Assembly: GCA_022478985.1 (NCBI GenBank)
Contig: JAKSZP010017344.1
Coordinates: forward strand, 55,244 to 119,243
Origin: Massospora cicadina
Lineage: Eukaryota > Entomophthoromycota > Entomophthoromycetes > Entomophthorales > Entomophthoraceae
Length of the DNA stretch: 64,000 nt
Direction: 5' to 3'
Below, piece by piece: positions 9,645 through 38,760 of the stretch. The translations under genes and the position numbers were made by a program. The number at the start of each line of letters is the position of its first letter. The first letter of the stretch is position 1. A model generated the notes under the pieces. It worked only from the letters and a program-made list of their open reading frames with translations, was not told where the DNA came from and ran no database searches.

Positions 9645-9661
9645 ATGAAGATACAAGAGGT

Positions 9662-11582
9662 ACCTCTCTCTCTGCTTGGAATAACTTTCCAAGCAATTTA
9701 TCTGGTAAATTAAAAGCAAACACTTAATTGCACATCAAAGTCTTGCTCCAATGTCATCAGATCCCCCACCAACTGTCCCAGCATGGGGCAGCAGCAAAAC
9801 TCCCCCTCTGTTTTCTGTCTGACAGGAAAATGTGCTTGGACTGGCTCGCCCAGTCATTCCAAACCCTTAGGATGATTTGTTCCTCCCAAATATCTCGATG
9901 CCCATCTTGCCTGAACCCAAGCAGTGCCCCACTGCCCCCGGGTGCTCCCTGGAGCAACATGCATTTCAGCCTTAGGGCCAAATATGGGAAATTCTTCCCC
10001 TACAACGACCAAGCCATTATCAAAATGGCTCGGGCAGTGATGACACCAGCCTGTTTTATTGACTTCCGCCCCTATAAAGGGGTACTTTGATCTTGGTTTC
10101 CCCTGTGAAGCTGATGCAGCCACTGTGGCAATGATACCACTAAAATTCAATAATATTCCCTTCCCAACAACTCAGACCCAGCTCCCAACGGACACCACCA
10201 TGGTGGTCCAGTTCTCTGGTTTGCCCACCTACCTCCCCCCGAAGTGCTCCACCAGGAGCTGATGGAAGGTTTGGCAGCATACGGTGCCAACCCCAACTTA
10301 CAATTTGTGGTCCTAAATGGGGCCACATGCCTTGCTGGGCCTCGGGCATATGCCATTATCAGCCCTGAATTTACAAAAATTTCTTTAGCAATTTCACCTC
10401 GCGCCACCATCCCATCTGCCCCCAACCATCCGTTCTGGGCCCATGTCAAGGGCGGATGGATGATTTGTCCATCCTGTTTCGAGTTAGACCACTCAAAATG
10501 CAAATGCCCATACTCAGAAACTTCCGCTGATGCCAAAAGTTTTCTGACGCCCACCAATCTGCTGCCCACCCCGCGCCAACTCTGACATGGGGTACGATCC
10601 TACCTTCCCCTCCTCCAATGCCTGATGCTGCAGATGCACCTGCAGCCACCAATCAGCATCCACCTTTCCCCAGGGCCACGCATGATTCTTCCAATCAAGT
10701 GCAGGATTGGACCCTGGTTCAAATCCAGGAAAATTCCAGAAAACCAGCCAATCCTCAACCATATGACGATTCCTCAATCCAATTCAACCAAAACCCATGG
10801 GAGTATTTGAATAGAAATTGACGAATCAGGTAATGTCATCAAAGAACCGTTGCTGCAAGTTGAGCAGCTCTGTAACGCAGAATGGGATGCAAAATTCCCG
10901 CCTCAGAAATATGTCCCACAGCCTAACGCCAAACTGTTCTACAGTGACCACCAGCTTTCAGCAGAAGCAGCCGCCACAACAGATTGTCATCCACTCAGCA
11001 AAGCTGGCTATAAATCCGTGGCTGCACTTGCAGGAGGAATTCCACCTCCCGTTATCCCCATAGATCTTACTGCACAAAGTAAGATCAACATGAAAATTTT
11101 GCACAAAAACGTCACTGAAGCCATCCAGAATGTGGCAACAGTAGCACAGAATCCAAAAGCAAAAATAACCTGAACCAACATTGCCACATTTGTTAAATTC
11201 CCAGATGTCCGCCTCAAAGCTGAAGACGCTTTGGCCAAATACATTGTTGGAATCATGATGGCTAACAACTATTTGGAAGTTCCAGTCATCAGGGAAAATT
11301 AACCCCATACCGCCAATGCCCCCACACCCCTACTATCTGCCTTAACACGCACCCTACTCTGGAATGAGATGGATGCAGCTGAAGATGAGCCCCCTGATCC
11401 CCCTCCCCGTCCACCATGGAGGGATAGCAGTATTCGTTACCCACCTGGTTGGATATTTGTTAGGTATGATTCAATCAATCCGTCCATTTTGGGCGTTTTG
11501 TTTGAATTGTTAATTTTTTATTATGATTTTAGTTTTAGTTTGATTATGTCCATCCCCTGGTTGGCTTACCTCATTTAAATAA
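9662..11582 (+). mobile_element. ORF1-only non-LTR element, copy 1
   Basis: A 1,921-bp insertion into the integrase of C, flanked by a 17-bp duplication with one mismatch (9645-9661 and 11583-11599, ATGAAGATACAAGAGGT against ATGAAGAGACAAGAGGT). It has no LTRs, an 89-bp 5' leader, one long reading frame, and a 3' end in TTTAAATAAA. Long duplications and an A-rich end are typical of target-primed reverse transcription. No endonuclease or reverse transcriptase is present, so it must be mobilised in trans. Copies 2 and 3 have the same layout and nearly the same length. It resembles mammalian HAL1 elements in concept only. Confidence 0.8.
9751..11420 (+). pseudogene. ORF1-like zinc-knuckle protein of copy 1
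   Basis: Start ATG at 9751 (MSSDPPPTVPAWGSSK) is conserved in copy 2 (MSSAQPPTAPKWGSGK). About 555 codons over several frames. Order: proline-rich start; a block FFPYNDQAIIKMARAVM then FIDFRPYKGYFDLGFPCEAD (about 9995-10110); a possible RNA-recognition fold, VVQFSGLPTYLPP through NLQFVVLNGA (about 10203-10325); a zinc knuckle CPSCFELDHSKCKC (C-x2-C-x4-H-x4-C, about 10467-10508); a linker; an alanine-rich segment; and a proline-rich end (PPDPPPRPPWRDSS). At least two stops and several frameshifts. Nucleic-acid binding is inferred from the knuckle; the family is not one I can name. Confidence 0.7.
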
Positions 11583-11599
11583 ATGAAGAGACAAGAGGT

Positions 11600-11960
11600 T
11601 TCTTCTGATGTAATTGTGGAAGAGCATGGATTAAATAGGGAAATTTTAGCAAAATGATTGATCACCACTATTACCGCTTTAAATCTATTAGAACAGGGAA
11701 GTCTAACAATAAAGTCCATGGACATTAGTGTCCATGGACTCTCCGCCTGTTGTAAAGGATGAAGTAGACCATTCCTTCCTGATCAATCTGACTTGGTTCA
11801 TGAACAAGTAATGCAATTGGCGATCCAGGCTGGTACTACTTTTGATAAACCCACCCAATTAAAAGTCCTCTTGATCAACTTGGTACATTTCTTATTGCCC
11901 AGATGACCAATTGTGGGAGGGTCGTGATGTTCCCAAAACACCTCAGCTCTGAAGAAAAGG
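11600..11960 (-). pseudogene. Element C integrase, core start and zinc-binding part
   Basis: Continues the integrase on the far side of copy 1. Near 11590-11725 the minus strand reads SMDFIVRLPCSN then AVIVVINHFAKISLF, the first acidic residue of the DDE core. The zinc-binding region lies toward 11960, in broken frames. The ORF1-only element split the core just after SEETSCLF. Confidence 0.75.
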
Positions 11961-12720
11961 GAAACCCAAACCCACAATTAAAAACAAATGAGATCCTCCA
12001 CCAAGGAATATAGGGAATGTTTGTGAGTTTGAAGGGACAATTGGTCTAATAATTATACTTCTTCAGGACAGGTCATTTGAGCTCCTAAAACCCGTGAAAT
12101 AAGGGGGGCATCAGTATATAAGTTTAATGATGAGACCATGGGGTACATAGATAAAATTTGGGTGGTGGGAATCACAGTAACTAGGTCCACTTCATCCAAG
12201 CCTGTGGGGCAATGAGCTGTATTGCGTCTAAGGAAATTGGGGAGCAAATTCAATTCACTTTTCAAAAATTCATGTTTAAATTTATAGCTGCATAATTTCA
12301 ATAGTTATGAGCTTGACTATGTGCCAATTTCTGCGGCATGCAAAAATACAGAATAGCTTAGTGATCTGTACGCACTGTTAACTCATGCTGAGCGCCTTGT
12401 AACAGATACTGCCAATGAGTCAGAGCCCATTCTATGGCTGCCAACTCCTTATAATAGATGTCAAAGGATTGCTCAGTAGAGGAGATTTTTGGGAAAAGCA
12501 CGCGACTGGATGTTATAAAACGTCATGCTCCTGGAGGAGAACAGCCCCCACTGCATCAGATGAAACATCGCATGCACTGATATACGTTCTGGATAAATCA
12601 GCATGTTTTAAAATGGGATTTGATAAGAACAACTCTTTGATTGACTCTAACGCCTGCTGGAACTCGGGTGTTTAACAAAGAGGAACATTCTTACCTTTGA
12701 GGGGGTGAAGTGGAGCGGCT
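11961..12720 (-). pseudogene. Element C RNase H region (decayed)
   Basis: By position between integrase and reverse transcriptase this must hold RNase H. The minus strand gives QYLLQGAQHELTVRTDH near 12360-12410 and related short matches but no continuous frame. The same segment in element B (20450-20950) is clearer. Confidence 0.55.
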
Positions 12721-13800
12721 AGTTGGGAAAGGGCTTAAGAAATTATCTTCAGGAAAATAATGGCGCCCAATAAATTTCATAATTGTTTCTGGGTTGTTAG
12801 GGTTGACCATTTGTGGATGGCATCCAACTTGCTGGGAAAATCGCATACCCATCTTTTAGTAAAAGGTTTCTGAGAAAAGCAACTTCTTCCCTAACAAGAC
12901 TCGCATTTTATGGCTTGACAAACAGGCCTGCCTTATGCAAATAAGCCACTAAAGCTTCCAAGTTTTTTGCATGTTGTTTGGGAGAAGGGGTGTGAATAAA
13001 AATGTCATCAATATATGCAACTGCGCAAGTAAATTGGAGGTTGCCCAGCACACTATTAATCATTCTTTGAAATGTGGCTGGCGCATTCTTCAATCCAGAG
13101 GGCATTACATGGAATTGGAAATGCCTCACTTTGTTCAGATTACAATAAGCCATTCTTGACCTTCGATCACTCATATTTGGTTGAAGGCATTAATGAGATC
13201 AAGCTTTGAGAACACACAAGGCTTAGCATCGCTTGACTGATAGTTTGCTCCAGTGGCAAAGGGTAGGGATTGTGCACTGTAATTTTGTTTAGGTGTCCAT
13301 AATCCATTCATGGACTGAGGTAACCATTGGCCTTCTTAACAAAATCTATGGGAGAAGCAACTGGTGATGTCTATTTAAATAACCTCCCTTTCTTAAGTAT
13401 ATTGTCTAACCAAGTGTTAAGAGAAGCCTCCTCCTCCACAGTGTGCGGATACAAGGGACAGTTGATATTCACAAACTGTACCATTATTTAGAATCCTAAG
13501 TCAACTTTAGTGTGAGTGGGAAGATGGTCAGCCTTCTCAGAGTTGAAGATACTTTTATAGCACAATAATTTTTTGGGAAAATCAGATGGAAGGCCCGAAG
13601 AAATGAGGGAAGTGATGGAGCTGTGGCCTTGAGTTTTATAAGATTAATGACTAAAGGAAATTCTTCTTCCGTTTGATCATTAACAAATGACAACATATTT
13701 GACACCAGGTGAGTTTTAACATGTTGTTGACACCACCATCCGACCCCCAATATTACTGGAAACACCAAGTTTGGCATTATTGAGAACCAATTGCAAAAGC
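12721..13800 (-). pseudogene. Element C reverse transcriptase
   Basis: Minus strand. At 12908-13174 it reads FHVMPSGLKNAPATFQRMIN and then AVAYIDDIFIHTPSP, which holds the polymerase YIDD catalytic box, followed by LEALVAYLHKAGLFVKP of the thumb region. The N-terminal palm is recognisable in pieces around 13200-13480. Frameshifts and stops throughout. Confidence 0.85.
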
Positions 13801-14404
13801 TAATCTGATGTACTGAGAAAGGTACAAGACGTCAGACTAGATATGAGGTCTGGGAGGCTGATAAAGCAATTATTACTAAAGGACCTAGACTCAGGTCAAG
13901 CTCCAATTGTTGGGTAGCTCAACACTCATAAAATTACCCATGGCTCTGGTATCCACCAAAGCCTAAAAGGAGACGTGGTGAGACTTGATATTAATCTTCA
14001 TGGGTAATAAAAATAGGCGAATTTCTTTATTGGCAGCTTTAATTGAATCTGTATATACATAAGAGATGGTACTAGGATTGAGGGAAACCACTAGGTTGGT
14101 AACTAGAGTAAACACTCCATAAGTTGGAACGATAGAACATAATGACATGTGCATGATGGCTGTGGTAACTATGGAATGTGGTTTGGACAATGATTAGAGC
14201 TGGGCTTTGACACCAAGGCCACCTTGGTGGCTATCATGAAAATTTCATTTAGGAGGGTAAGCTTGGATGATTAAAGAGGAACTAGACTATTATGACAATA
14301 GTAAATTTCTTCACAACCTGACTCAACTGAGAAAAAAAGGATCATTGCTACGCCAATATCAACGAGAAAGGCATAAATGGTTAGGAAATATGGTTAGTCA
14401 ATTA
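13801..14404 (-). pseudogene. Element C protease and residual gag
   Basis: The aspartic-protease active site is visible at about 13930-13960 as ALVDTRAMGNFM; the usual DTGA has become DTRA, which would abolish catalysis. Upstream, 13963-14190 is open and encodes the segment before the protease. From 14190 to the LTR only about 215 bp remains, so gag is largely deleted. Element B reads ALLDTGAAGNFMDL at the same place. Confidence 0.7.
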
Positions 14405-15556
14405 TGTAAGGCAAACAGCAAGTTCTTTTTAGATCAGTCTGCCAGTTTAATTGCTGAAGCACCCAAACGGCAAACCTAAATGCCAGTGGCACTGCTGCTG
14501 GTATGATGGTTATGGAACCAGGAAGAAATTCCGCCATTAAGTGCCCATGAGCCACAATCATGTATAGCACCTAGCAAAGTACCAGATTAACATGGCCATA
14601 AACCCCAAGGGTTGTTGGAATACAGACGGAAAGGGCGGTTTAGTTTAAGCATAAAAACTAGAATTAGGTAAAGAGTTTTAATGGAAAGACAAGTAAAGAA
14701 AATCGACCAACAATTTCTCAGTGCAATGCAGCTGATTAAATAGTGTTTAATATGGTAGTAGGTCCAAGCAGGGATTGGGGCCCTCAAATTTGACCTAAAC
14801 CCGCAAATTTTCAGGGGAAAGGGAAAAATAATTTTAATTAGAACCAACATGGAAGGATTCAGTGGTAGGCTGAGTCACTATTGGTCCAGCTGCAAACGCC
14901 TAGACTGAGGCTCAACTGCGTTTTCATCAGTTGGAATGATGGCATCTGGCTTAGTGAGCAACGGGAACTTCCCAGGGCCACCCCACATAGAGGCGGTCCC
15001 AATTGGTTGGAAACAGGTTTGGGATGCCAAACCATCCAAGCCCGGTCACTGGGGCATTCATTTGACCAAATGAGTTACACTGGGTGCAAATCCCATTCAT
15101 TAGATAGGGGTTTCAAATTATCTTTGATAGTCCCTGAAGGTACCATCTGCTCTTTGCAGATCATCACCAAAGATTTCAAGGGGTGTTTGGCAATGGTGAT
15201 TGTACTGCTAGCTGACTCAAAATCATCAGCAATTCTGGCCAATAATTCAATACTTGTCCCTTCTTGACTATTAGTTTTCCAATTGTTGGGCTTTATTCCC
15301 ATTGGTTTCAGACCTTTCATCTTCAATTCAGTAACCTTGGCGCAGTTTTCCTCAATTTGGCGGACAAGTTCATCAGAAATGAGCGGGGGTACCAGAGGAG
15401 GAATCTTTATAGGGAGCGCTGTTACCTAGCGCTCGTCTATCATGTGGGCGAGGTTGCCTTGGGTGATGAGGGGTACAGCCACCCATTTTTGACCCTTCTT
15501 ATTCAGAAATGGGAAATCGCTTGATCCACGCAAAGGATACGTTCCCTGGACTTACA
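14405..15556 (-). repeat. 5' LTR of element C
   Basis: 1,152-bp partner of 1022-2172. On the minus strand it starts TGTAAGTCC at 15556 and ends GCCTTACA at 14405. The following bases (TAATTGACTAACC on the minus strand) resemble those after the LTR of element B (TAATGGGCCAACC), suggesting a common, non-TGG priming site in these two chromoviruses. Confidence 0.85.
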
Positions 15557-16200
15557 CAGCCTCCATAATAGGCCTCCAAACCACCCGCTCCTTTTTGAAC
15601 TCCTCCCCCCTCAGTGAGCATAACCATCTGGAGGCTCTGGAAGGATTTGTACCACTTAATAATTTCTGTAAAGGTGTATAACACCTATGGATGGTGCTCC
15701 ATTGTTTTACAGGACAGAATTGATCTGGCCCTACTCTTCAACACCACAGCTTCCCCTGTTGTTTAGAGCCAATTGACTCCCATATCTACCACTTTTTCAC
15801 CTGCCCATGTGTCACCGTGTTCTTGACAAGATGTGCTATCTCTTCATTCCATTCCATGGCTTAAAACCTTGTTCAATTATGTTCTTTAAGCATACCCTAG
15901 CTAGATACCACTACCCTCTCTGAGTCCTTGACTTAATCATGTCAAAATGGAAAATCAAAAAGATTTCTCTTCAGGCATCCTTTGCCTTATAAGTGTGGAC
16001 TCTACCGCACATGATTTCCCAATTCAAGTGTATTTGAGACATCCCTGAAATTCTCACTATGTCGCCAGCTCACCCCCTACTCAGTCTCAACTGCAGAAAA
16101 GCTATAGCGCACCAATCCCCCTCCCTTTCTTATGTCTTCTCTTTCCTTTTACATTGCCTCCAGCTTTTTAGGAGCCAAGGCTTAATTAAATAAACACCAA
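15557..16200 (+). pseudogene. LINE 3' fragment (ORF2 C-terminus and 3' end)
   Basis: Plus-strand frame near 15765-15870 reads CCLEPIDSHIYHFFTCP, the cysteine/histidine motif at the C-terminus of many L1-like ORF2 proteins. Coding decays after about 15860 and the fragment ends near 16190 with TTAATTAAATAAA, a plausible LINE 3' end. It lies on the same strand as the LINE remnant at 1-1021 and probably is its continuation past element C. Confidence 0.6.
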
Positions 16201-16520
16201 TCAATTTCTCTTGTTTGGGACCATCTAGTAATTAAAAACTCATATGTTTTTAAAAAGGTCAATTTAGCCTGGCCCATTTTTAGAGAGATTATAAACCTTT
16301 TATAGACTCCAAAACATTGATTAGATTCTAGAAAATCATGAGTACCCAGTCTGTAAGGAATTGGGGGAGCCCAAGTTGGCTCTAGTTGCAAACTGGCGGG
16401 TTCCTATCTGCTATCAGAGGTAATAATCAAACTACTGTCATTGTGGCCCATAAACCCTCTAGTTGACGAGGTAAGTACCATCTTTACATCTGCACAGAAG
16501 CAGCCTCACTGGGCGCCATG
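16201..16520. other. Unassigned stretch left of element A
   Basis: Between the LINE 3' end and the target duplication of A. The minus strand is open over 16182-16391 (69 residues), with nothing recognisable. It was probably the insertion target of A. Confidence 0.4.
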
Positions 16521-16525
16521 ACTCT

Positions 16526-16869
16526 TTTTGAAGTTTTGAATTGTACTTCTGAAGTGGATAGGATAGTCTTGAAGTTACTTTGTGAAATCTCCAAAAAGAT
16601 AGTAAAGATAGTAAATATATGTTGTAAAAGTACCTATTTTTTATTATCAAAAAGGAATATATATTTTTTGGTTTTAAAGTAGCTCAGGATTTATCAGCTC
16701 TTTTCAATTGTTGAGCAATCAAATCTTCTGATATCACCTGATTGGATAAGCGTTAAAGTTCTTTTTAAACTTGATAATATTAAATTCATTAAGTTCTTCC
16801 TCCAAAATTATTTGTGGAATATTTGAGTTAAATGTTTTGTGAACTGAAGAATTTGGTGAAATTTTGACA
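16526..16869 (-). repeat. 3' LTR of element A
   Basis: Direct repeat of the 30732-31294 LTR, and the paralogous empty site for the SINE there (AAGTGGATAGGATAG near 16549). It starts TGTCAAAATTTC on the minus strand right after a polypurine tract. Confidence 0.85.
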
Positions 16870-16886
16870 CCTCCCCCTCAAGATTT
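16870..16886 (-). other. Polypurine tract of element A
   Basis: CTTGAGGGGGAGG on the minus strand, adjoining the start of the 3' LTR and overlapping the end of the integrase frame. Confidence 0.75.
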
Positions 16887-17009
16887 GATCGTAGAGGAGG
16901 ATGAATCCTCAAAATCCAGGGTGATACAATTTACAACTATATATATCCATATCTACATGGACAATTCACTATAAGCCCCTTTTGGAATATAACTCAATAA
17001 GGACCATCG
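16887..17009 (-). pseudogene. Element A integrase C-terminal end
   Basis: The minus strand ends with LDFEDSSSSTIKS then a stop just before the polypurine tract, a common Ty3/Gypsy Pol ending. It continues the integrase that begins on the other side of B at 25258; the junction reads as DGPY, likely the GPY/F region. Confidence 0.6.
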
Positions 17010-18753
17010 TTTCATGTAATCTTCTGATTAAGTAAGACGGGCTTCCAATATGAGTGTGTAACAACCCAGTGGAAATCCCAGAATACCAAGAGCATAGCAG
17101 TTCTGGTTAGTTGTAGGAGGGGTCCCCTATTATTCTTGTGAGGGAAATAAAAGTAAATTAACATACCAATGGCCCCATAGCAAACCAAATGACTGCAATG
17201 GGGGCAACCATGGGTCTTGCTGAGGCATCTCCCAGGGGTGGGAGAGGCTAGAAGGATGACTAATAAAACTGGGTTTGCATTTGGTGACCTTTGGGCTCCT
17301 TTTTCAAACTTTCTTGGACTGGTTCATCATAATAAAATTTCTGAAAATCATAACAATTTTCAAAATTTTTGAAATGCTGATTGAGTTTGCCAATCGAATT
17401 GAATTGAATCAATCCAACCATTAGGAGGCCTTAAGACTTGTCTTGTGTCCATTGAGGAGTTTCATGATGCAAAGAGAGGTCATGTACGTCGCCAAAATGG
17501 TGGATCTATTTAATAAATTGACTTGGATCATATTGGTCCTCAGCAAAATGGCCCAGATGGTCTAGTGCCTGGTCACCACCTCACAGGTGTTAAACAGCAG
17601 TTCTTTAACACCAAACGGATAATTGCAATTAGTGGAGACAGCCTCATTCCACCTGAATTTCGCCATACCATTAGCAGATCAATAGGGCATATTAGTTAGA
17701 ATTCACTGACTATTTTGCAAAGTGGGAGGCAGACCTTAAGCTGGTCCATCAGTGGCCAAATGGGAAAAAGGTCGTTGCAAAGAATTTTGCAGATCTAAAA
17801 CTCTTCAGAAGTGGCGGATCATCATCATAATCTTGAGTCGACTTCTTGGACTGTGATCACCATTTGGTGGGCTGCCAGATTGATGTCTTGGAGGACCACT
17901 CGATGACCATCAGTCCTAAAACACAGATCACTGTGTACTTCGGTGGGATAATTGAAAGTGTTTTGGAAAAAAGTGATAGAGCATGCAGAGTAGGTTTGGC
18001 ATGAGTAGTTTTATTAAACTTAATAGTGGGAACAGACTAACAACTGCTCCTTTCAGAGGCAGTTGCCTTATATGCAAAAAGCTAAAAATGTGGCCTTGGG
18101 TAAGTTTTCTTAGGCAGCAGCAGCTTAAGTACTCATGGGTGCTCAGCCTGGGTTGGGGCTTTGTCATCCAGCTTATGCAAAGGTCACAAAAGCTCTGGCA
18201 ACATAATCGTTTGATCCACCAGGGAGGGACCCTCATGATCCAAACGTAAGTGGATTTACTCAGATCAAAAGGGTGGCCGAATTGAGTTCTGCCAGGATCA
18301 ATATGACGAATTTGTAAAAGATTTTTTAAATTTCCAAAAGTGAATTTCTGACTTGAATTGGTTTTCTTAAACCCAGAAGCTTGGATTCCATTTTTAGGAC
18401 CGGGTTTCCTGACTCAGGAACCATTTCCTGAGTTTTAAGGCCAATTTCCTTCTTTTCCAAGTAAGTAAAAGATGGCGGAGTGGGGCCTAGTGGAGGGGAT
18501 AGGTGCCATTGGTGACTTCTGGCCTGTATTACCTCTTTAAAAACCTCTTTTATCCTTTCAATCAAAAAGAAACAGCCAAATGGGATACTATGGTGGGGTC
18601 TTTTGGGGCCAATGCAGTGACCTGGCGTTCATCAACCACATGACCAAAGTCCCCCAGTTGAGCAAGGGCTCCACAGGGGCATTAGGTCCCTTCTTCTTTC
18701 TAAAAGGTACCTTTTCCCGATCCAACCCATAAGGTTGGGTCTCTAGACTTACA
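17010..18753 (-). repeat. 3' LTR of element B
   Basis: Partner of 23502-25257. The right border (TGTAAGTCTAGAG on the minus strand) is firm because a polypurine tract adjoins it. The left border is less certain: a TGTAACA at 17057 would also fit, but homology with the other copy continues down to about 17010. ORFs inside it on both strands (for example 17928-18249) match in both LTRs only because the LTRs are copies. Confidence 0.75.
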
Positions 18754-18778
18754 TTATACTCTCCTTTTTGAACGGGAA
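18754..18778 (-). other. Polypurine tract of element B
   Basis: AAAAAGGAGAGTATAA on the minus strand immediately before the TGTAAG start of the 3' LTR. Confidence 0.7.
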
Positions 18779-18879
18779 ATATTACTCCTCCTGGCATGCT
18801 AACCAGGATATAGTTCTTGTGTCTAGTAGGAGATTTGATGGCCAAAATCGTAGCAATTTTCTTGGGTGAATAGGGGGCT

Positions 18880-21831: not shown

Positions 21832-22049
21832 TTAGTGATAATTCCTTTACTACATCTCTTATTGGCAAAGGACAAAGAGTTAAGTTCCAGATTGATGTTC
21901 ACCTGTTGGCAACACCACCCATCTACTCCATGATGACAGGGTATAGTTAATCAGGTATCGCTGTAAAGTGGTCACAGAAGCCAAATTGGGGGATAAAGAG
22001 CTGAACTGGACGTTGGACAGTATGGCAGGTCATTGGTGTAGATGAAGCG

Positions 22050-28600: not shown

Positions 28601-28699
28601 AAATCCAAACTGAGAGGGTAAAGCCAATAAGAAGGACAAGGAATAGGAAGAATGTCATCTTTACTATACTCTACAGGGTTTTGATTTTTCTGCTGCATA

Positions 28700-30715
28700 C
28701 TCATATCATTACCAAGATGGTAAATATTATTGGTTTTGTCTTTTTATCAGCTTCCTTTTTATAAAAATAATCTTCTGTATGTAAGTATCAGAGACAATAA
28801 TCACACTGAATATCTCTAGCATTTTCAGGCACTGCGTATACTTTAGGATGACTGAGCCTTAGAGAGTCATAGATTTAAGGTTTTCAGTACTTTGAAGGGG
28901 AAATTCCAACAAAGTCTCCTTTGTGTCCAAGATACTTCCGAAGATAATTTATAAGCTAATAAAGTAGACATGCATTTGATCCCTAGAAGTGAAAGCAGAC
29001 ATAATAGCAGTAATACATCGTCCAAATTTAACCAGCCATATGCTACCAAAGTCTGAGCCTCCTTATAGAATTGATAAGCGTAGTCTTTGATAGTTTCATT
29101 TTGATGCGGCTATATGCCATAATATCCTGTTTCTGAGAGTATAAGGTTTGTTCACTCCCAAATTCTTTTATCAATGATTCCTTAACATGGGACTAAGTAG
29201 AAAAAGTCATCAAATGAGGTACCATAATATCATGGGCTAATTGAGTAAGACAATTTTTTAATAATTCATTTTTAATGGTCTATGGCATCACTCAGAGATT
29301 CTTATATAAATAGAGTAATGAGATGATACTGACTTCCCCAGGAGAGTACTTATCCTTGAATACAGGTTTAGAACTCATAGGAGCATTGGATGATAAATAG
29401 TGCACTCCAGGTTGTTCCAATTGAGTGAAGGCGTAAGAATTAGAGTCAGAAGCCTTAGAATATTGAGGATTGGAACCAGCTTGCCTCAATACAAATTTCA
29501 TTAATCTGACAATTTTGGGTCAGAAAGCCCCACTTTTCGTCCAATCTTTGAGATAACTCAAACATGCTACTGCTGTGCATGGTATCTAAGTTCCAAAGTT
29601 TCAATCTTCGTTTGAAGCATATTGCTTTTTAGATTCACAGGCCTGTAACAGGAGATTAGTATACTTTGCCCATTTACCCACATTATTTAATTTGTCAGAT
29701 AAGGATTGAAGCAATAACAAGGGATCAATAGGTACCCCATTGGAAGTTAAATTACACTCATTGGAAACTTTATGAAACTTCTTATACAATTGTTCAATCA
29801 TTCTCAATAGAGTTTCAGCCTGCTGAAGGGATCCTGAATGCCCATCAGCACCAGGAGGACCATGAGACCCTTCAGCATCTGGGTGTCCATGAGGTCCTTC
29901 AACAGCAGGAGAACCTTATTCCCCCTAGGGACCCATAGTTCCCAAGGTTTTTTCTACTTTGCTAACTCAAAATTGAATTCCAGAGTACAATTGCTCCAAT
30001 TGGAAGAGGCGATTTTTAATTTCCTCTTTCATCAATTAATTATGATTAGAGAGTCAGGAAAAAGTGTCTCTCCATTCAACCCGCATTGTCTGGCCTCGCT
30101 TCATTAATTGTAAGTCAAAAAACTATATATTACGTGATCAAACTGAATAAGTTGTTGTTGCACTTCATTAAGAAGATTTTGATTACTAATAATGGCGTCA
30201 CAACTATCTTTACTAAACTATGAGGCATACCTGAAGAACTTTAAAAATAAGTATTCAAGTATTGGAATCTTTTCTAATATATTAAGCATCACTTGATGAT
30301 GCATTCCTACTACTTGTAATAAGTGATATAAAGTAGAGTGTTCAAATTGGTGTAAATATTGCTTGGTACCAATCCCTGGAAATTAAATAATTTTATATAA
30401 ATCCCTCATTGTAGGGTTACATAATTATCTAAGTCAAGTATAACGGATTCCAATAATTAGAACCCCATCAAGCATCTGATTGATGTTTCTTAAGCCTCAG
30501 GCTGTATTAGAAAATTTGTAATAAAGCTTAAATGGGACCATAAAATTCTAAGTTGGCACAGAATTACAACATAGATGGTACCCTTGGGATTTTAGTTCTA
30601 GTGGAACGGACTCATCATAAAATACTGCCTTGCTCATGGTCTTGAGACTCTTAGGTGAAAAAAGAGAATCCATCTTAGTAATTGACTTTTCAAAAGAAAG
30701 TAACTCAGAGAACCC
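28700..30715 (-). pseudogene. Element A gag with collagen-like repeats
   Basis: The likely start is MDSLFSPKSLKTMSKAV at about 30671, 60 bp after the LTR. Near 29832-29940 a run of about eleven Gly-X-Y-like triplets occurs (GSPAVEGPHGHPDAEGSHG continuing to GPPGADGHSG). Then come a helical segment LLRMIEQLYKKFHKVSN, further capsid-like sequence at 29501-29292, and a partial zinc knuckle (CDYC then H) near 28785-28815. Multiple stops and frame changes. The triplet run is unusual for a Gag protein. Confidence 0.65.
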
Positions 30716-30731
30716 TGTTATGAGCACCACT

Positions 30732-31294
30732 TTTTAAAGTTTTGAATTGCACTTCTCAAGTGGATAGGTAAGACTTAAGGGTGGTTAGCCTGGCAGGTAA
30801 AACTGCTTCCACCCTAGTGCAGGTTTTGAGTTTGAAACTTGTACTGGCTATAAAAATTCTCAGTGTGGTATATTTGTCCCAAGGTCAACCCACCTCAAAT
30901 ATTCCAAAACCTGTACTGGCTAGAAAAATTCTTGGTGTGGTATACTTGTTCAAGGTAAACTCACCTCAAATATTAAGTGGATAGGTAAGTCTCAAAGTTA
31001 CTTTGTGGAATCTCCAATAAGATAGGAAAGACAGTTAATATAAGGTTGTAAATAGACCTATTTTTTTATTATCAAAAAGAATGAATAATTATAGGTTTTT
31101 AAATAGTTTTGTTTTTATCATATCTTTATAATTGCTGATCAATTAAATTTTCTGATATCACCTGATCGAGATAAGTTTGATTGTTCTTGTTAAGCTTGAT
31201 AATACTAGATTTATTGAGTTCCCACTCCAATATTATTGGTGGAATATTAGGTGTAAAAGTTTCATGAATGGAAGAACTTGGCAAAATCCCAACA
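30732..31294 (-). repeat. 5' LTR of element A with SINE insertion
   Basis: About 346 bp once the SINE and its duplicated target are removed, matching the 344-bp 3' LTR. It begins TGTTGGGATTTTG on the minus strand at 31294, and a primer-binding-like TGGTGCTCATAACAGG lies just inside the element. Confidence 0.85.
30773..30974 (+). mobile_element. SINE family I copy, partly dimeric, in the LTR of A
   Basis: Inserted between two perfect 15-bp copies of AAGTGGATAGGTAAG (30758-30772, 30975-30989). A full unit (about 30777-30902) is followed by a second partial unit made only of the B-box region and tail (about 30903-30974). The other LTR of A shows the unoccupied site. Confidence 0.9.
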
Positions 31295-31299
31295 ACTCT

Positions 31300-32880
31300 A
31301 AAATTGCTTAAAATGAAAAAACTGGTATGATAGAGAATGTTTTTTAAAAACAAAACATAGAGAGAAAAATAGGCCAGTACCTTTACAAGTAAGGGCACTG
31401 GCCTTAAGATAGGGAAGGAGTATTATGTTTTGTGGCACTGTCCTTGGGTTCTGAAGCTCTTGGGTAAGTATCTTTAGTAGCTGCAGGTTCCTTGGTTCAT
31501 GCTTGAGAGGAGAGGGTCAGTTTGCAAGTTGGCGCAAGAACTGAGGATGAGTTGGGTTATAGGACACGACATAATTTGCTGTTAACCAACTTAACTTTCT
31601 TTAAAATTCTTAAAATTTTCATAAATCAAAGCTGCTCTATACTCAGTGGTCCGGCGCTTAATTGGAAGCAATATATAAAAACAAAGGAGAGGGATATTAG
31701 GGAAATAACAAAGGGGAGGGTAAAATCAATGGCATGATTTTCAACATTCTTTAGCAAAATTAGTTTTTTGTATCTGGGACGTCATAAATCATTAAGAATT
31801 TTTGAATATTTATAACCTTGGGAAAATGGGTGGTAGTAATGAGGAGCTTATCTGGAGTACTTCTGCTGTTTTGATATAGTTGAGTAATTTCTCTACACAG
31901 GAGCTTAATTGTGTTAACATATCAAGTACTAGTCAGTGGGGATCTGGAGTAGTTGCAAATATGGGAATTTTTCTTAGAAAATTGGCTTTTTTTACCTAAA
32001 AAGGGATAATAGGCACAACTTAACTTCTTGCCCTTTATGAAAAGCCTTACACAGTCAGCTGCACTGGGTAAAAGATAGCACAATAAGTTTGCGCTGTAAA
32101 AAGATGTATGTGGGTATTTATAAGAGTGTAATAAGAATCTTTTAACTAAATAAAAGTTAGTGTCTGCTTTATCTCAGAAAGCAATTTGGCTGTTATTTGC
32201 AGTATGGTTTGTTCAGTGTCACATAAGGTCTGAAAAGATTATGTACATACATAAAAGAGAATGATACTACTTATGATTTAAGTTAGAAATATAAAAAAAA
32301 TCAAACATATTAAATTAATGAAAAAAGGTTGGTAAATATCATGGTGACCGTTACAAAAGGCCACCAAACCCAGCTTACAACCAAGGAAAGTCCTAAAAAA
32401 TGAATTTGTAACAGTAAAACAGTAGGTCAACTAATGTAAGAAAATTATCTGTTACTGTCTGATTCCTGGAAAGGCGTTGTGGGATCCAAACCCAAATATC
32501 AGGGAATCTAAAAATTAAGTCCAATAATAGGAATTACAGCGGGAGATGCCCACGCCTTGATAACATAAACACAAGCTAAAAATAAAGTGATATATAAATT
32601 TACAGAAGATGCCAATTACTAGGTCAAACTCCAATATAGATTTCATCAGTAGATGTATTTATGGTTCACAACTAGTTGTATAACAATTTTAAGAGTTCTA
32701 GAATTAATAAAATATTGAGTAGAATCTGCATCTATATTTAGGAGGTAAATTGATTTAGACTGTTAGACCTCCACAAGAAGGTCCACAGCTATATTTAACA
32801 GAGTCACATAAAAAGATTAGATCTTGATAGTTTATTAATTATAAAGTTGATAAATGAAAACTTTGGTCTATAAAATCAAA
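31300..32880. other. AT-rich non-coding interval
   Basis: No gene, RNA gene or element ends could be recognised. The longest frames are under 75 residues and match nothing. Confidence 0.5.
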
Positions 32881-32883
32881 TTA

Positions 32884-33165
32884 AAAAGAAGATACCCCAG
32901 TGGTAGAATAAGACCTCTACTGCTTCCTCCCAAAGTTTGATTCTGGTACAGGAACTTTGGGTAGGGGACAATTATGACTTTGTTGGTGTTGTGCACCAAT
33001 GCCCCAAACTGAGATAGCAAATAGCAAAGGCGGCCATGGAGTTCCTGGCCTATCATACGCCATGCATGGAGGTTTTCCAGATTTTTCCTCCTTTCCCATT
33101 TATTTGATTTCCCAATAATTGGTGCAGTATTTTCCCCAGGTCAGCCCACCTCAAATAAAATAAAA
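32884..33165 (+). mobile_element. SINE family II copy (older)
   Basis: Collinear with the 39821-40096 copy on the other strand: head GATACCCCAGTGGTAGAAT, B-box-like AAGTTTGATTCTGG, body with GGAGTTCCTGGCCTATCAT, and tail CCCCAGGTCAGCCCACCTC followed by AAATAAAATAAAA. Mutated boxes suggest an old, inactive copy. A long duplication is not evident. Confidence 0.8.
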
Positions 33166-34376
33166 ATTAACTTTAAGAAAGTTTGAAGTCTATATCATGA
33201 TACATTGTTTTAAATCTGTGCTCATGATACTCAATAGAAAATTTCTATTTGGTTGTACCATATCTGGAATATGCTTATAATCAAATTAGTGATTGCAAGC
33301 ATTAAGTACAGAACTTAATGAGTGAAGTTCTGTATAAAGATCAATCTAAGTGCAGATACTATAATTAACTCCCATCTGCACCTACCATATATTTAGTTAC
33401 TTTTTATGCGGTAGTTGCCACGATTATTAAAACATATATAGACGCCTTCATTACTACCTGGTCATGCTTAACCATTACCCAGCATCAGTTCAAAGTTTAA
33501 GTAATAGCAGGCAGAATGGCCAACTTGATAGATTTAGACTTGGCAAAAATCTTCTTTTTTATTGCGGTTGACAACAAAAATTGTGTCATAAGTATGTCAA
33601 TTTATTTAAAGAACTTTTATTTAAAAACTTGCTTAAAAGCGTCTCAGATCCTTGAGACCTGACATACAAACATAGGTGCATAGTGATCTTTCTGTATTGC
33701 TTCATTAACAAATTTATATATTATATTTTAGATCAAATTTGGTTACTTTGAACTCAAATTTATAAAAAACTAAGGAACAATCAACAGACCATCTAGTACT
33801 AAAAAAATAAGGAACAATCAACATAATGTATATAAATAGATATGAATTATGCTTTCTTATTTTAATTTTGTAACTGCAAAGACTGTAATAAATATAAATC
33901 ATCTTTAGCTTAGACTTTAGTAGATTATCAAACTATATATATCTTTATTTTTTCAATTTTAAAAGTTATGTTGACCTTGAAATTAAAAATACATGGATTT
34001 GACAGATGAGCAAATAAGTTTTTTAATTTATACCATTATTATGGACTCCAAAGTGTAGGTAAATTTCATTATAAAGGCTTGTGTGCTCTTCACTTATATA
34101 ATTCCATCTTGCATCATAGCATTTTGGCATCTATGCATGTAATATCCTAGCCAGATGGTCCCTGGGTCTGTCCACATAATTTTACACAATGGTTGCAATT
34201 TAGACCCATGTCATTATAGTAATAATTGGATGCCCCAACTAACTACTATTTACCATTTTCTCTTTAGTTTTAAGTATTACTTAATTAATAAATATGTATA
34301 ATATTCACTAAAAGATATACTTATAAATTAAAGGCTTCAAGTACCAAGAGGATATCTATACATGTGAATTTGCGCA
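33166..34376. other. AT-rich non-coding interval
   Basis: No coding or RNA feature supported. A local repeat of about 17 bp, AAGGAACAATCAACA, occurs twice near 33772 and 33811. Confidence 0.5.
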
Positions 34377-34575
34377 CCATGTCTCAGTCTGACTAAGCAA
34401 ATTAGTGAAATTAGATCATGTAATCCTGGCCTATCAGAACATGCACAGGAAGGCTTTACCACCTGTACTTGGGTTTTGTCCTTCACTCCTATATCTATTC
34501 TCCCCACTCCCTAACCCTTCTATTGGTGTGGTATGTTTGTCCCAAGGTTGGCCCACCTCAAGTAAAAAATAAAAT
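34377..34575 (+). mobile_element. SINE family II copy (very degraded)
   Basis: Retains TCCTGGCCTATCAGAACATGC and, at its end, TGGTGTGGTATGTTTGTCCC then GGCCCACCTCAAGTAAA, matching body and tail of family II. The tRNA-like head is hard to see. Confidence 0.6.
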
Positions 34576-34604
34576 CTTTAAGTTTTAAATAATGTTAAAC
34601 GAGG

Positions 34605-36536
34605 ATGATTTTTTCTGCTCAATAACACATTTGAGAGAATTTAAAATTACAGTATAACTAAACAACTCTGAAAAACTGACAAACAGCAAAACACCAATGT
34701 CCTCAGCTCAACCTCCCACTGCTCCAAAATGGGGCAGCGGCAAATACCCCCTAGCATCTTCCACCCAGCAGGGAAACACTTTTGAACCAGATTGACCAGC
34801 CCCCCAATTCCTTGGGTTAATAAATCCCCCAAAAGATCTCGCCCTCCACTTTGCACATTCTCAAACAGTGTGCATAGCCCCATTGTTCTCCCCTGAAGCA
34901 TGATGAGATTTAGTCTCTGGGTCAAATATGGCAACTTGTTCCCCTACAATGACAAACAAATAATAAAATTAAAACAGGCGCTTATGCAGCCTGCAGACTT
35001 TATTGACTTCTGCCCCTACAAAGGGTACTTTGACCTCAGATTAACTTGCGAAACTGATGCTGCAATCACAGCCAACATTCCCCTGGTGTTCCAGAAAACC
35101 CCATCCCAACCACTCATACCTAGTTGCTTCTGACACCACTCTTGTGGTTCAAATTGCAGGCCTCCCCACCCACCTCCCCCTGAAACTTTATAAAACAAAA
35201 TAATAGCTGGGTTGTCAGTATATGGCGCTGACCCCATTTTACAATTTGTGGTTTCTGAAGGAGCTAACCCACTTGTAGGCCCTTGCGCCTTTGCAACCAT
35301 ATGCTCATATCAACTGAAATTGCCATTTTCAATTCCCCTTGCACCATTGTCCCCTCTGCCCCCAAACACCCTTTCTGGGCCATAGTAGATAAGGGGCGCA
35401 TGATCTGCCCCATTTGTTTCAACCTGGACCACTCAAAGCAGTGCTGCCCCACCATAGCCTGAGATGGAGCCCACACGCTTGACTCCCCTCATGATGCTCC
35501 CATGGCTGACATAAAAACTTTTTTGAATGGGGCACAATCTTCCCTCCCCTCCACCCAAAATGGTAGATGCAACTGCCACAGATTCAACCATTAAGGAACT
35601 GACATGCCAAACCACCACTCCTACTCCAACTAATCAGTAGCCAGAACGGACCCCAGTAAATTCAAAAAAACCCACCCAGCCACCCAATCCAACCCACCCA
35701 TATGCTAATCAACCTATCGTCTCCAACCATAATCCCTTGGGATTATTTGGAGGAAGTTGATGATTTGGGAAATTCCATTCCTGACTCAGTTGAGGCCCCA
35801 GGCCTCAAAATATACCTAAACGCAGATTATGTGGCTCAATTCCCAACTCTCTGATATGCTCTACTCTCAGATGCTGATGAATTCTGAAGTAATCACCAAC
35901 TCACCAAATAGGATGTTGCCTCCCCTGATTGTCACCCCCTTCAAAAGGCCATAGCAAAATCAGTTGCAGTCTTGGCCAAGGGGGTACCTGCCCCTGTCCT
36001 TCCCCCATGCAATAAAATCATAAAAAGAATTTCTCAGATTCCAACAAGTTGCCCACAAGGAAGTACAAAAAGTTGCAATAGTCGTAAAATTTGGCCCTAA
36101 AACCTGCATTACCAGCAACAACATGGGCACCTTTACCAAGATACCCAAAGTTTGCCTCGAGGCTGAAAAAGCCCTATCCAAATATATCACAACCCTCCTC
36201 ATAGCTAAATTTGAGCTTCCCAAGCCACTTTGCTACATGACCCCCATTTTGAGTATGTACCCATGCCCATGATCTCAGCATTATGCTGTACACTGTCTGA
36301 TACAGAGAAGGAAGATTAGCCTCCTGATCCTGACTCACCCCCACCATGGATGCATAGCAGTTTACCACATCTGACCTGGTTGGTTCATTTTAGTTTTTAT
36401 TTTTATTTTCGTTTTTATTTGAGTGATACGCTCATCTCTTTCTGTTTGCCTAAATTCTATCTTAGTATAAGTTTTGCTCCTCAGAGCTCGGTATTGTCTG
36501 TCCCCTGGTCATCTTGCCTCAGTTAAATAAAATAGA
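34605..36536 (+). mobile_element. ORF1-only non-LTR element, copy 2
   Basis: 1,932 bp, flanked by a 10-bp duplication TTAAACGAGG (34595-34604, 36537-36546). 92-bp leader, ATG at 34697, 3' end GTTAAATAAAATAGA. The conserved protein blocks are YNDKQIIKLKQALM, FIDFCPYKGYFDLRLTCETD, APKHPFWAIVD and a knuckle CPICFNLDHSKQCC near 35407-35452. Frame is broken by many stops. The second duplication copy lies in the tail of a SINE that continues at 36547, so this element landed in a SINE 3' end. Confidence 0.8.
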
Positions 36537-36540
36537 TTAA

Positions 36541-36680
36541 ACGAGGTGGGTCAACCTTGGGACAAATATACCACACCAAGTTTTTTATCCTGTGCTGGTT
36601 TCAAACCTCTTTTTTATCTAAACCCAACCCAGAGTGGAGCATGGCCCACCCTGCTATGCTACCACTCCTCAGCTTTATAT
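36541..36680 (-). mobile_element. SINE family I copy
   Basis: On the minus strand the tail (TTGGTGTGGTATATTTGTCCC region, then GACCCACCTCG) lies at the low coordinate and the B-box-like GAGGTTTGAAACC is near 36605-36617. The head is diverged. The tail was split off by the insertion of the ORF1-only copy 2. Confidence 0.7.
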
Positions 36681-36859
36681 TATGTTAAAAGTCACTTATT
36701 TCTCAATTAACATAGCATATAAGTCATGCAGCATTAGCAAAAATACTTGATTAAGTGTATTAGTAAACCTAGTTGCTGAGGATATAAAAATAGTTATAAT
36801 GAAGTTTCTTAAAGATCAAAGATTAAATACAGACTTAGCTTTACAATAGAGCTACATAT

Positions 36860-38760
36860 TTTCTTTCCGCTCAGTATCACTTTTTAGTGATTTATATATA
36901 AAGTTGAGTAATAAACAACTACAAGTCAATGACTCATTTTTCAGCCTCAATGTCCATGGCACCACTGTCTGCTGTTCCAGTATGAGGCATCAGCAAACCC
37001 CTCCTAGCGTTTTCTACCCAACTGAAAATGAGTTTGTACTGGTTTAAACGATCCTCCCATCTCCTCAGTTCAATATATTCCTCCCAATAAATTTGACCTC
37101 CACCTTGCACAATCCCATATGGTTCCTTGCAGCCCCATTGTGCTCCTTATAGCAGTATGCAATTCAGCCTAGTGTTGAATATGAAAACATGTTTCTGTAC
37201 AATGACCAACAGAATTTTAAATCATCTCAGGCGCTTATGAAGCCTGCAGGCTTTATTGAATTCCGCCCCCAAAAGGGTGTTTTGACCTGAGCTTCACTTG
37301 AGAAGTTGGAAGCTGCAATTGCAGCTACCATTCCCTGGTATTCCGAGATGACCTCCTCCCAACCACTTGTACCCAGTTGCCCACTATACCACTCTTGTAA
37401 ATCAGTTTGTGGGGCTCTTTCACACACCTGCCTCAAATTATTGCATGAGGAGCTGGTCATCAGATTATTGGCATATGTCTTTGACTTCATCTTTCAATTT
37501 TGGTTTCTAATGAAGCCGCCTGAATTGCAGGCCCTCACACTTTTGTAACAATTTTCCCCACTACAACAGAAAATGCTTTCCTGATTCCCTCTTACACTAT
37601 TGTCCCTACTACCCCAAATCATCTTTTCTGGGCCGCACAGTTGGGGGGCACTATCTGCACCACCCTTGATGATTTAAGTCATTTGAAATAGTGCTGCCCT
37701 CCATTGCCCAATCTGTGGCCCCAAATCTGACTCCTCTCATGATGACCCTATTGCCATCCCAATTATTTTCTTCAATTAGGGCACAATCCTCCTTCCCCCT
37801 AAGGTGTTAGCTACAGCTGCCCCTTCACCGACCAATATGGAGACCTCTCACCAAGACTCTTCTCTTAAACCAGCCAATCAGGGGTCATATTGGACCTCAG
37901 GAAAATTTGAAACTCTACCCAGTCACCCGCCTTAGTTTATACATATTCAATGACCCATCATCTTCAACCAAAATCCTTGGAATTACTTGGAGGAGGTTAA
38001 TGTATCAGTTATCCTGTTCCTAACTTGGTTGAGGCTCTTTCCCTTAAGCTATACTAAATTCTGAATATGCAGCCCAATTCCCATCTCAGCATTATGTACC
38101 CTGCTATGATGCTGACCCATTCTGCAGCGACTAAAAACTGTCCAAAGAGGTAGTTGCCTCCCCTAAATGGTGCCCATCCAAAAAGCCATTGCAAAATAAG
38201 TCAAATTCTTGCTGAGGGCCTGCCTCCTCCTGCCTTCCCCACCACCATGCATCCAGTTCACAAAAAAGAACTCCTCTGCTTTCAGCAGGTTGCTAATAAA
38301 GTGGTACAATAAGTTGCAGCAGTTGCAAAGTTTGGTCCTTAAAACCTATATCACTCACAACAATATAACCATCTTTGCCACACTCCAAAAGTCCACCTTG
38401 AGGCTTATAAAAGCTATTTTAAGTATATTACTGCCCTCATCATATTAAAAATCAAGTTACAAGCCCCACTCTGCTACCCTGACCCTCACTTTCACAATGT
38501 ATCCATGCCCGTGCTCTCAGTTTTGTGCTAAACCCTGTCCATCCCAGATGAGGATCAAGAGTCTCATGTTCTCTTTCACCCTCTGCCACAATCAATTATC
38601 TTTTTATCACTTATAACTTCATTAATTTTTTATTTTTTAGAATTAGTTTAAGTGATCCCCTTGCCTTATTTTGACCATCTTTAGTTTAGTTTGGTTATTT
38701 TGCTCTTCTGAGCTTTAGTGATGTCTATCCCCTGATTGGCTTACACTCCAATAAATCTAA
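36860..38760 (+). mobile_element. ORF1-only non-LTR element, copy 3
   Basis: Same layout as copies 1 and 2: ATG at 36950, then YNDQQNFKSSQALMKPAGFI, EFRPQKG, a relic of the zinc-knuckle region near 37655-37695 with cysteines altered, and a 3' end TCTATCCCCTGATTGGCTTAC then AATAAA. The leader start is estimated from the other copies; no clear target duplication was found. It is the most decayed of the three. Confidence 0.65.

Follow-up and report, generated by a model that had tools for sequence, protein, structure and literature searches.

Three collinear non-LTR elements lie within the 64 000 nt stretch of Massospora cicadina DNA analysed herein (the window), at positions 9662–11582, 34605–36536 and about 36860–38760. 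Their features are as follows.

9645–9661 (no strand): 5′ target-site duplication of copy 1, 17 bp, one mismatch to 11583–11599
9662–11582 (+): copy 1, a full-length family A element (ORF1-only, 1921 bp) whose frame is broken
9751–11416 (+): ORF1-like frame of copy 1, beginning MSS and interrupted by stops and indels; its length of about 555 codons follows from setting it against other copies
10055–10095 (+): conserved FIDFRPYKGYFDL block of copy 1; an extra base here breaks the frame
10466–10507 (+): CCHC zinc knuckle of copy 1, C-x2-C-x4-H-x4-C, as read in the sequence
11542–11570 (+): 3′ tail hairpin of copy 1, common to LINE1, LINE2, other ORF1-only families and a SINE
11583–11599 (no strand): 3′ target-site duplication of copy 1
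34595–34604 (no strand): 5′ target-site duplication of copy 2, 10 bp
34605–36536 (+): copy 2, ORF1-only element of family B2, frame broken
36490–36518 (+): 3′ tail hairpin of copy 2
36537–36546 (no strand): 3′ target-site duplication of copy 2
36860–38760 (+): copy 3, ORF1-only element of family B3, with a broken frame and without a detectable duplication
38717–38745 (+): 3′ tail hairpin of copy 3

The collinear architecture ascribed to these copies in a preliminary description of the window is borne out, with each possessing a leader of about 90 nt, an MSS start, a FID(F)xPYKGYFDL block, the knuckle and a TAAATAA-type end. Also upheld is the absence of a polymerase, as an endonuclease/reverse transcriptase (EN/RT) frame does not fit within 1.9 kb that align end to end with ORF1-only copies. 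The same description had regarded the three as a single family with one frame of some 555 codons in each, and on both counts it has to be corrected. Copy 1 displays only ~65–67 % nucleotide identity to copies 2 and 3 over alignable parts, as do copies 2 and 3 to each other, such that three related but diverged families are present; the frame is broken in all of them, with longest open stretches of 143, 82 and 85 codons for copies 1, 2 and 3, respectively, and is discernible at its ~555-codon length only through comparison with other copies. The two target duplications reported for copy 1 (17 bp, one mismatch) and copy 2 (10 bp, perfect) were recovered, and none was detected for copy 3 (best score 5, against 9 for the highest of 50 random pairs). 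Scanning of the window with Rfam (gathering scores) and ARAGORN returned no matches, despite tRNA-like SINEs being recognisable there by eye. One short RT motif, scanned across the window, gave a single RT-like context, of LTR type by eye.

Copies, coding frame and protein of the ORF1-only families

A genome search with copy 1 produced 11757 candidates, of which 40 were scored and 42 rows listed. Amongst those scored are 39 further family A copies with 86–90 % identity to copy 1, the other listed rows being copy 1 itself, the second piece of one copy and one 72 % relative; best-scored copies predominate in this and all other samples. All but two of the 39 start within the first 44 nt and end at position 1910 or beyond, and length and ends are fixed over dozens of copies. 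Those fetched finish in a defined tail and not in an EN/RT frame, an outcome that the preliminary description had named as refutation. Target duplications of score 11 or more, with a median of 16 bp, flank 32 of the 39. Two copies, L032 and L033, have one site in common and are probably a single insertion. Whilst 5′ truncation is common, if not obligatory, in non-LTR retrotransposons, it was not seen as a frequent event in family A: when 20 copies were chosen by their 3′ 400 bp alone, 16 began no more than 15 nt from the 5′ end, two more came near it, matching from nt 83, and two had no match in that region. First-look candidates numbered 6990 with a 5′ probe of family A and 3823 with a 3′ probe. 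In its variable-length target duplications, dispersed sites and fixed 3′ end, the family behaves as a mobile non-LTR retrotransposon; its boundaries and duplications are typical of target-primed reverse transcription, and the three elements of the window are genuine non-LTR retroelements that lack both endonuclease and polymerase.

The best copy, L005, retains 536 open codons. Between families the frame is under purifying selection, the dN/dS ratio, for which a value near 1 had been proposed as refutation, being 0.23–0.38 over the conserved part. Specifically, it is 0.31 for A–A2 (nt 87–1150) and, over nt 87–1720, 0.38 for A–L041, 0.23 for A–win2 and 0.31 for A–win3, with dS near saturation for the last two (1.95 to win2 and 1.72 to win3). 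Family A and its sister A2 form a mosaic, and in the part shared by recombination (nt 1150–1720) their ratio is 0.57. Divergence by codon position is 0.36/0.29/0.60 for A–win2 and 0.037/0.035/0.041 within family A, where the frame is decaying neutrally, mostly at CpG. The codon-position signal stops near element nt 1720, and dN/dS for nt 1720–1912 is 0.96, 0.38 and 0.87 in three comparisons; therefore the position at which the protein ends is uncertain. The possibility that the 3′ part is wholly untranslated is weakened by the frame being open to, or nearly to, a TAA within the terminal TTAAATAA, as holds for copy 2 and for the majority sequence of family A. In two of the three comparisons, the 3′ part near TTAAATAA gives a flat codon signal.

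With regard to the protein itself, some 170 residues, the last of them at the zinc knuckle, show homology to the ORF1 proteins of two complete LINEs of this genome, LINE1 and LINE2, at 27–30 % identity (26.9 % over 186 columns and E 6e-8 for LINE1; 29.6 % over 125 and E 7e-9 for LINE2). Profile comparison of ORF1-only and LINE ORF1 proteins returns 94 % probability (E 1e-7), and the knuckle region of L005 aligns with that of LINE1 ORF1. For the C-terminal half, neither LINE1 nor LINE2 gave a significant match (best E 0.13). The L005 frame drew no significant hit in Pfam or among PDB sequences: the knuckle went unrecognised by Pfam, which likewise found no EN/RT in this frame, and element length is fixed at 1.9 kb. 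The protein is a long-diverged relative of the partner ORF1 with a C-terminal half of its own, and not a copy of it. A protein database search returned just two partial Massospora proteins; one of them, P0001, gives on visual inspection the impression of ORF1-only sequence fused to LINE-like ORF1 sequence.

The 3′ tail and its LINE counterparts

The complete LINEs of the genome are separate elements of 5.2–5.3 kb that carry RT, and the comparison made here covers two families of them. By Pfam, the RT of LINE1 is well recognised and its EN piece not at all, whilst EN and RT pieces of LINE2 appear solely under the cut-offs. The search for a partner through the 3′ end, as had been suggested, led to LINE2, whose tail is near-identical and whose ORF1 is a distant homologue. 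The LINE2 tail is 92.5 % identical to the family A majority over 40 nt, with single copies reaching up to 97.6 % over 41 nt; the alignment scores 64, where shuffles attain no more than 24. A degenerate tail pattern is matched at 26/26 positions by LINE2 and at 21–22/26 by five of six LINE1 copies, the sixth falling below the listing threshold. This tail sits within LINE2's own perfect 16-bp duplication, and all 40 scored LINE2 3′ matches, one of which is the known copy, extend as far as that end. LINE2 is abundant (5104 candidates), with 40/40 scored matches at 94 % identity or more. A 3′ tail in common with the LINE, one feature expected of a LINE2-dependent element, is possessed by family A.

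Plain alignment of other tail pairs is less distinctive. Scores are slightly or modestly above the shuffle maximum for A–win3 (34; maximum 33), A–SINE2 (30; 27) and A–LINE1 (29; 23), and not above it for A–SINE1 (21; 30), LINE2–SINE1 (16; 27), LINE2–SINE2 (25; 26) and win2–win3 (32; 33). At the level of structure, the tail folds into a hairpin that shows compensatory changes among the LINEs, the ORF1-only families and a tRNA-like SINE. In the alignment 88.1 % of cells are paired, compared with 45.6 % at most for slid structures, and 18 two-sided changes were observed versus 7.7 in shuffles; none of 500 shuffles reached the pairing, the two-sided-change count or the covariation score. Two of the five measures were ordinary, namely pairs with a two-sided change (5; 100/500 shuffles as high) and further pair types (12; 114/500), and the LINE2 tail alone has no unusual stability (z +0.5). 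LINE1, LINE2, a SINE and several further families all possess this hairpin type, which therefore belongs to more than one lineage.

A 5′ leader common to family A and the LINEs was also considered, and was not established by shuffling: the family A leader hardly aligns with that of LINE1 (6/300 shuffles as high) or LINE2 (52/300). Leaders that do align are those of LINE1 and LINE2 (33; shuffle maximum 24) and of copies 2 and 3 (37; 26).

Mechanism, alternatives and relation to known elements

Taken from sequence comparison, the reading that we hold with considerable confidence is that these are non-autonomous non-LTR elements of an old lineage, encoding an ORF1-type protein alone, their RNA being copied by the EN/RT of LINE2 in the manner of HAL1 or HeT-A. 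The element RNA bears at its 3′ end nearly the hairpin tail of LINE2, and because an RNA hairpin near-identical to that of a complete LINE is present, the LINE copying enzyme is very probably borrowed. The ORF1-type protein, of a nucleic-acid-binding kind, would package the RNA that encodes it as an RNP, and the EN/RT of LINE2, possibly also that of its relatives, would recognise the hairpin and copy the RNA into new sites. With its own ORF1p and a borrowed polymerase, such an element would therefore work like mammalian HAL1 or Drosophila HeT-A. The preliminary proposal of an own RNA-binding protein combined with a borrowed LINE RT is supported, a partner with a near-identical tail and a homologous ORF1 having been found; RNA binding and RT use are predicted. 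The lineage is old, comprising several families at ~65 % nucleotide identity that have kept the frame, and its members exchange parts, as in the A/A2 mosaic.

That the elements are instead internally deleted or truncated LINEs, passive passengers without a functional protein, would agree with the partial homology of the frame to LINE ORF1, the LINE tail and the decay seen in each sampled copy. Such a reading is already disfavoured, and we consider it very improbable, given that length and ends are fixed over dozens of copies, that several families at ~65 % identity display dN/dS of 0.23–0.38, that the C-terminal half lacks a significant LINE1 or LINE2 match (best E 0.13), and that ORF1 identity to either LINE is just 27–30 %. 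Equally improbable, in our view, is that the protein acts mainly on the LINE, as a dominant competitor of LINE2 ORF1p that redirects the RNP to parasite RNA: its homology to LINE ORF1p, the same hairpin on both RNAs and candidate matches in the thousands would suit this, but LINE2 is abundant and young, and therefore does not look suppressed. The true partner could also be a different LINE with the same tail type, beyond LINE1 and LINE2, as the hairpin is common to several lineages; this we regard as unlikely, since the tail pattern is complete in LINE2 and reaches only 21–22/26 in five of six LINE1 copies. As an extension of the preferred reading, that of borrowed LINE2 EN/RT, one may picture an ancient self-standing ORF1-only lineage in entomophthoralean fungi, its packaging protein outlasting any LINE family, swapping body and tail modules by recombination and riding whichever LINE polymerase reads the hairpin, with the LINE perhaps using the parasite's ORF1p; this is a speculative picture, to which we would give a small but appreciable chance.

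HAL1 (half-L1) of mammals is described as non-autonomous and LINE-derived, with several origins and ORF1p only (PMC5753468), and as likely moved by L1 (PMC4161310). The ORF1-only families likewise encode nothing but ORF1p. HAL1 is, however, an L1 derivative, whereas the protein herein is 27–30 % identical to local LINE ORF1 (a comparison that leaves out L1 itself); the unrelated C-terminal half, CCHC knuckle and defined hairpin tail are further differences, the HAL1 tail being poly(A). The ORF1-only families would work like HAL1, yet are not filed as HAL1 members. At Drosophila telomeres, HeT-A is presented as a Gag-only non-LTR element for which TART or TAHRE is believed to supply the polymerase, and with its gag apparently under negative selection (PMC5537684). 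The resemblance lies in a protein with a CCHC knuckle and in the lack of a polymerase within the element. HeT-A Gag is also of CCHC type, and TART depends on it for telomere targeting. HeT-A is found at chromosome ends, in telomere arrays without target duplications, whereas ORF1-only copies occur on many contigs, at dispersed sites and with target duplications. For stringent-type LINE/SINE pairs, a common 3′ tail with a stem–loop recognised by the LINE protein is reported (PMC5135761, PMC4176376). SINEs with LINE tails are short and non-coding, unlike the 1.9 kb ORF1-only elements with their conserved encoded protein. UnaL2 exemplifies tail pairing of this stringent type.

To our knowledge, the reason for a LINE parasite to keep an ORF1 protein of its own is open for both HAL1 and HeT-A. 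A single genome here holds an ORF1-only element, a complete partner LINE, a common RNA signal and a SINE that bears a signal of this type, in very many copies, and the question therefore becomes testable by setting coding against non-coding parasites. A protein-coding LINE parasite is now placed outside animals, and, for a fungal genome that ranks among the largest, some of the repeat content is given a name.

Judging solely from literature searches, a protein-coding, polymerase-free family of this kind may be undescribed in fungi. In barley powdery mildew, the EKA family and the LINEs Satine and Kryze are described as many-copy sequences from LINE ORF1 (PMC4641428). EKA consists of truncated ORF1 copies that full LINEs gave rise to more than once and that became effector genes; unlike the ORF1-only families, it is not an independent family of elements with ends and a tail of its own. 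A non-autonomous retroelement with a coding role, encoding a peptide, is also reported from this fungus (PMC6022598); that peptide acts in the host plant, and is not an ORF1-type knuckle protein such as the one found here.

Copies, ends and decay of the ORF1-only families

Genome searches covered an assembly of 1.47 Gb in 16968 contigs; the published Massospora cicadina assembly is 1.488 Gb with 92 % transposable elements (PMC9584336), and a 2024 comparison places a LINE expansion in M. cicadina after that of Ty3 elements (PMC11105155). A search with copy 1 (9662-11582; 1921 bp) returned 42 rows from the best 40 scored of 11757 first-look candidates. All were read, and comprise copy 1 itself, 39 copies at 86-90 % identity, another piece of one such copy, and L041, a 72 % relative. 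Within this best 40 of 11757, 37 of the 39 family-A copies span from the first 44 nt, or closer to the start, to position 1910 or beyond. The typical start is (A)CTCTCTCTCTGC and the typical end CTTACCTC(G/A)GTTAAATAA(A), with a scripted search finding a target duplication scoring at least 11 in 32 of the 39 (median length 16); this count excludes L039 (without a 3′ end), L041 and window copies 2 and 3. These are retroposed copies with fixed ends. Copy 2 (34605-36536) and copy 3 (about 36860-38760) represent related families, B2 and B3; over the alignable parts, the three window copies are about 65-67 % identical in every pairing. Copy 2 has a perfect 10-bp target duplication, none was found on looking for one at copy 3, and the frame is disrupted in copies 1, 2 and 3 alike. 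Two loci, L032 and L033 on contigs C4896 and C1518, are apparently the same insertion; given their common target site they are probably one insertion assembled twice, so that the assembly carries some sequence in duplicate.

Because complete copies are favoured in ranked lists, the 3′ 400 bp alone were also used as a probe. Nine of the best 40 scored (of 3823 candidates) were already in the copy-1 list, and among the 31 new places the first 20 were taken, with 311 bp read at the expected 5′ end of each. This end was reached within 15 nt in 16 of the 20, with two further copies matching from nt 83 and two having no match at the 5′ end, and a 5′ 400-bp probe gave 6990 first-look candidates. There is, therefore, no sign among these 20 copies of the 5′ truncation that is usual for L1. 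The candidate numbers, which do not equal copy counts, point to thousands of copies. The same 20 copies, all picked for a family-A 3′ end, have 5′ ends of family A in 8 cases and of its sister A2 in 10, with none found in 2. A2 5′ ends are 78-90 % identical among themselves and 74-79 % to A. One A2 copy, L100, was read in its entirety; in steps of 100 columns its identity to A is 58-90 % up to about nt 1150 and 92-94 % thereafter, dN/dS between A and A2 being 0.31 in the diverged and 0.57 in the shared part. From the alignment, this mosaic looks like recombination inside the frame.

Damage to family A is mostly CpG decay. Across 38 aligned copies (those kept after dropping L039, L040, L041 and window copies 2 and 3), divergence from a CpG-adjusted majority averages 3.8 % (2.2-5.9 %) once CpG-type columns are set aside, and 37.5 % at the 125 sites inferred to be CpG, which would fit the expectation from cytosine methylation. 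The family majority shifts frame twice because two C-runs differ in length between copies; both homopolymer error, in an assembly made largely of nanopore reads, and real slippage fit this variation.

A selected frame related to LINE ORF1

Within family A, non-CpG substitutions per codon position are nearly even (0.037, 0.035 and 0.041), which is the pattern of dead copies. Between families the frame is under selection, with uneven divergence at the three positions for family A vs L041 (0.24/0.23/0.37), copy 2 (0.36/0.29/0.60) and copy 3 (0.42/0.35/0.61). Over nt 87-1720, after dropping codons with a gap or stop, dN/dS is 0.38 (dS 0.67), 0.23 (dS 1.95, near saturation) and 0.31 (dS 1.72, near saturation), respectively; in the last 190 nt it is 0.96, 0.38 and 0.87. 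L041, copy 2 and copy 3 are each one decayed copy, so neutral decay is expected to raise these between-family values. A protein database search returned only two relatives of the frame, both partial hypothetical M. cicadina proteins (one with 67 % identity over 23 % of the query, the other with 84 % over 6 %).

A genome search for RVT_1 listed 150 rows, most of them showing the short, LTR-type spacing; judged from lengths, about 10 among the matches listed are of the longer, LINE type. LINE1, read from six of these loci (L072-L077), is about 5.28 kb long, with target duplications of 12-21 bp that are clear in five of six copies and doubtful in the sixth. Its ORF1 has a CCHC knuckle by eye, RVT_1 matches at E 1.9e-38, zf-RVT falls below the cut-off, and the endonuclease piece, without a Pfam match, was assigned by eye. 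At L075:1023-6296 a LINE1 lies nested, with a 16-bp duplication, inside a second element, LINE2, whose remaining parts were also read. LINE2 comprises an ORF1 with knuckle, an endonuclease piece and an RT piece (Exo_endo_phos E 0.0097 and RVT_1 E 0.019, both below cut-off), and is 56-60 % identical to LINE1 in RT and 40-43 % in ORF1.

The ORF1-only protein is homologous to both LINE ORF1s. Using the best family-A frame (L005, 536 codons open), residues 55-225 match LINE1 at 26.9 % over 186 columns (E 6e-8) and residues 85-202 match LINE2 at 29.6 % over 125 columns (E 7e-9), with a profile comparison giving 94 % probability. The homologous stretch is the part ending with, and including, the knuckle; residues 221-536 have no significant match in either LINE (best E 0.13). 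At L073:6282-8215 (-), a full-length family-A copy adjoins a LINE1 3′ end and has LINE2-like sequence on its other side.

The shared tail and its hairpin

The family-A tail is near-identical to that of LINE2, a complete LINE and the proposed partner. A degenerate tail pattern of 26 positions is matched in full by LINE2, and at 21-22 positions by five of six LINE1 copies. Identity of the LINE2 tail is 92.5 % to the family-A majority over 40 nt and 80-97.6 % to single listed copies over 38-90 nt, the local alignment with the family-A tail scoring 64, with none of 300 shuffles above 24; the two differ mostly at CpG-type sites and by an upstream gap of 5 nt. This tail is LINE2's own rather than that of an inserted parasite, as a perfect 16-bp duplication encloses LINE2 together with the tail, and all 40 scored LINE2 3′ matches, the known copy included, run to the tail end (94-100 % identity; best 40 of 5104).

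Similar tails occur on several other elements (window positions unless a locus is named):

6865-6918 (+), 30863-30903 (+): SINE1 and SINE1-like, tRNA-like, with B-box-like stretch and LINE-type tail
42801-42854 (-), 36533-36568 (-), 43731-43766 (+): further places of this SINE1 and SINE1-like family, with the same features
39813-39866 (-), 33121-33150 (+): SINE2, a second tRNA-like SINE family, tail with covarying hairpin
34523-34576 (+): short, unclassified element immediately preceding copy 2, its tail of the SINE type
L030:28-81 (-), L035:2541-2594 (-): two further elements carrying the shared hairpin

By eye, the SINE2 copy at 39813 is bounded by a direct repeat.

The tails contain a conserved two-part hairpin. 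It was assessed in 17 tails (16 distinct), taken from a scripted pattern (46 places) and from reading of the window: four of LINE1, one of LINE2, five of family A, copies 2 and 3, L041, two unclassified elements and two of a tRNA-like SINE. Three SINE1 tails and one SINE1-like tail with a longer loop, wrongly cut in an earlier 21-tail alignment, were dropped. Paired cells amount to 88.1 %, cells with two-sided change to 18 (7.7 in shuffles) and covariation to 0.356 (0.192 in shuffles), each with 0 of 500 shuffles as high, and slid versions reach at most 45.6 % paired. Two other counts are ordinary: 5 pairs show two-sided change (100 of 500 shuffles are as high), and there are 12 further pair types (114 of 500). 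Because CpG decay can produce some of the covariation in the inner stem, the outer stem (UA/AU, AU/GC, AU/GC/CG) carries more weight as evidence. Folded singly, the tails of LINE1 (z -2.35) and SINE1 (z -2.56) show unusual stability, and that of LINE2 (z +0.5) does not. Plain alignment places the SINE tails near one another (46, with shuffles reaching at most 23), with no clear closeness to LINE2 (SINE1 16, SINE2 25; shuffle maxima 27 and 26), and the SINEs may, therefore, depend on a LINE other than LINE2.

Putative mechanism and other window features

In the proposed mechanism, the ORF1-only protein would bind its own RNA, and the LINE2 RT would read the tail hairpin and prime at the target nick. 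The elements would thereby work like HAL1 of mammals and HeT-A of Drosophila telomeres, but they are neither L1-derived, as is HAL1, nor telomeric, as is HeT-A. A search of openly available literature found no fungal ORF1-only LINE families; the closest fungal examples in it, both from powdery mildew, are EKA and a non-autonomous retroelement that encodes a peptide.

Elsewhere in the window, a 276-codon open frame at 46071-46901 (+) has no Pfam match at all. A further retroelement is also present:

54983-58508 (+): Ty3-type retroelement with three long frames, RT and integrase assigned by eye

Its first frame has protease matches just below the Pfam cut-offs.
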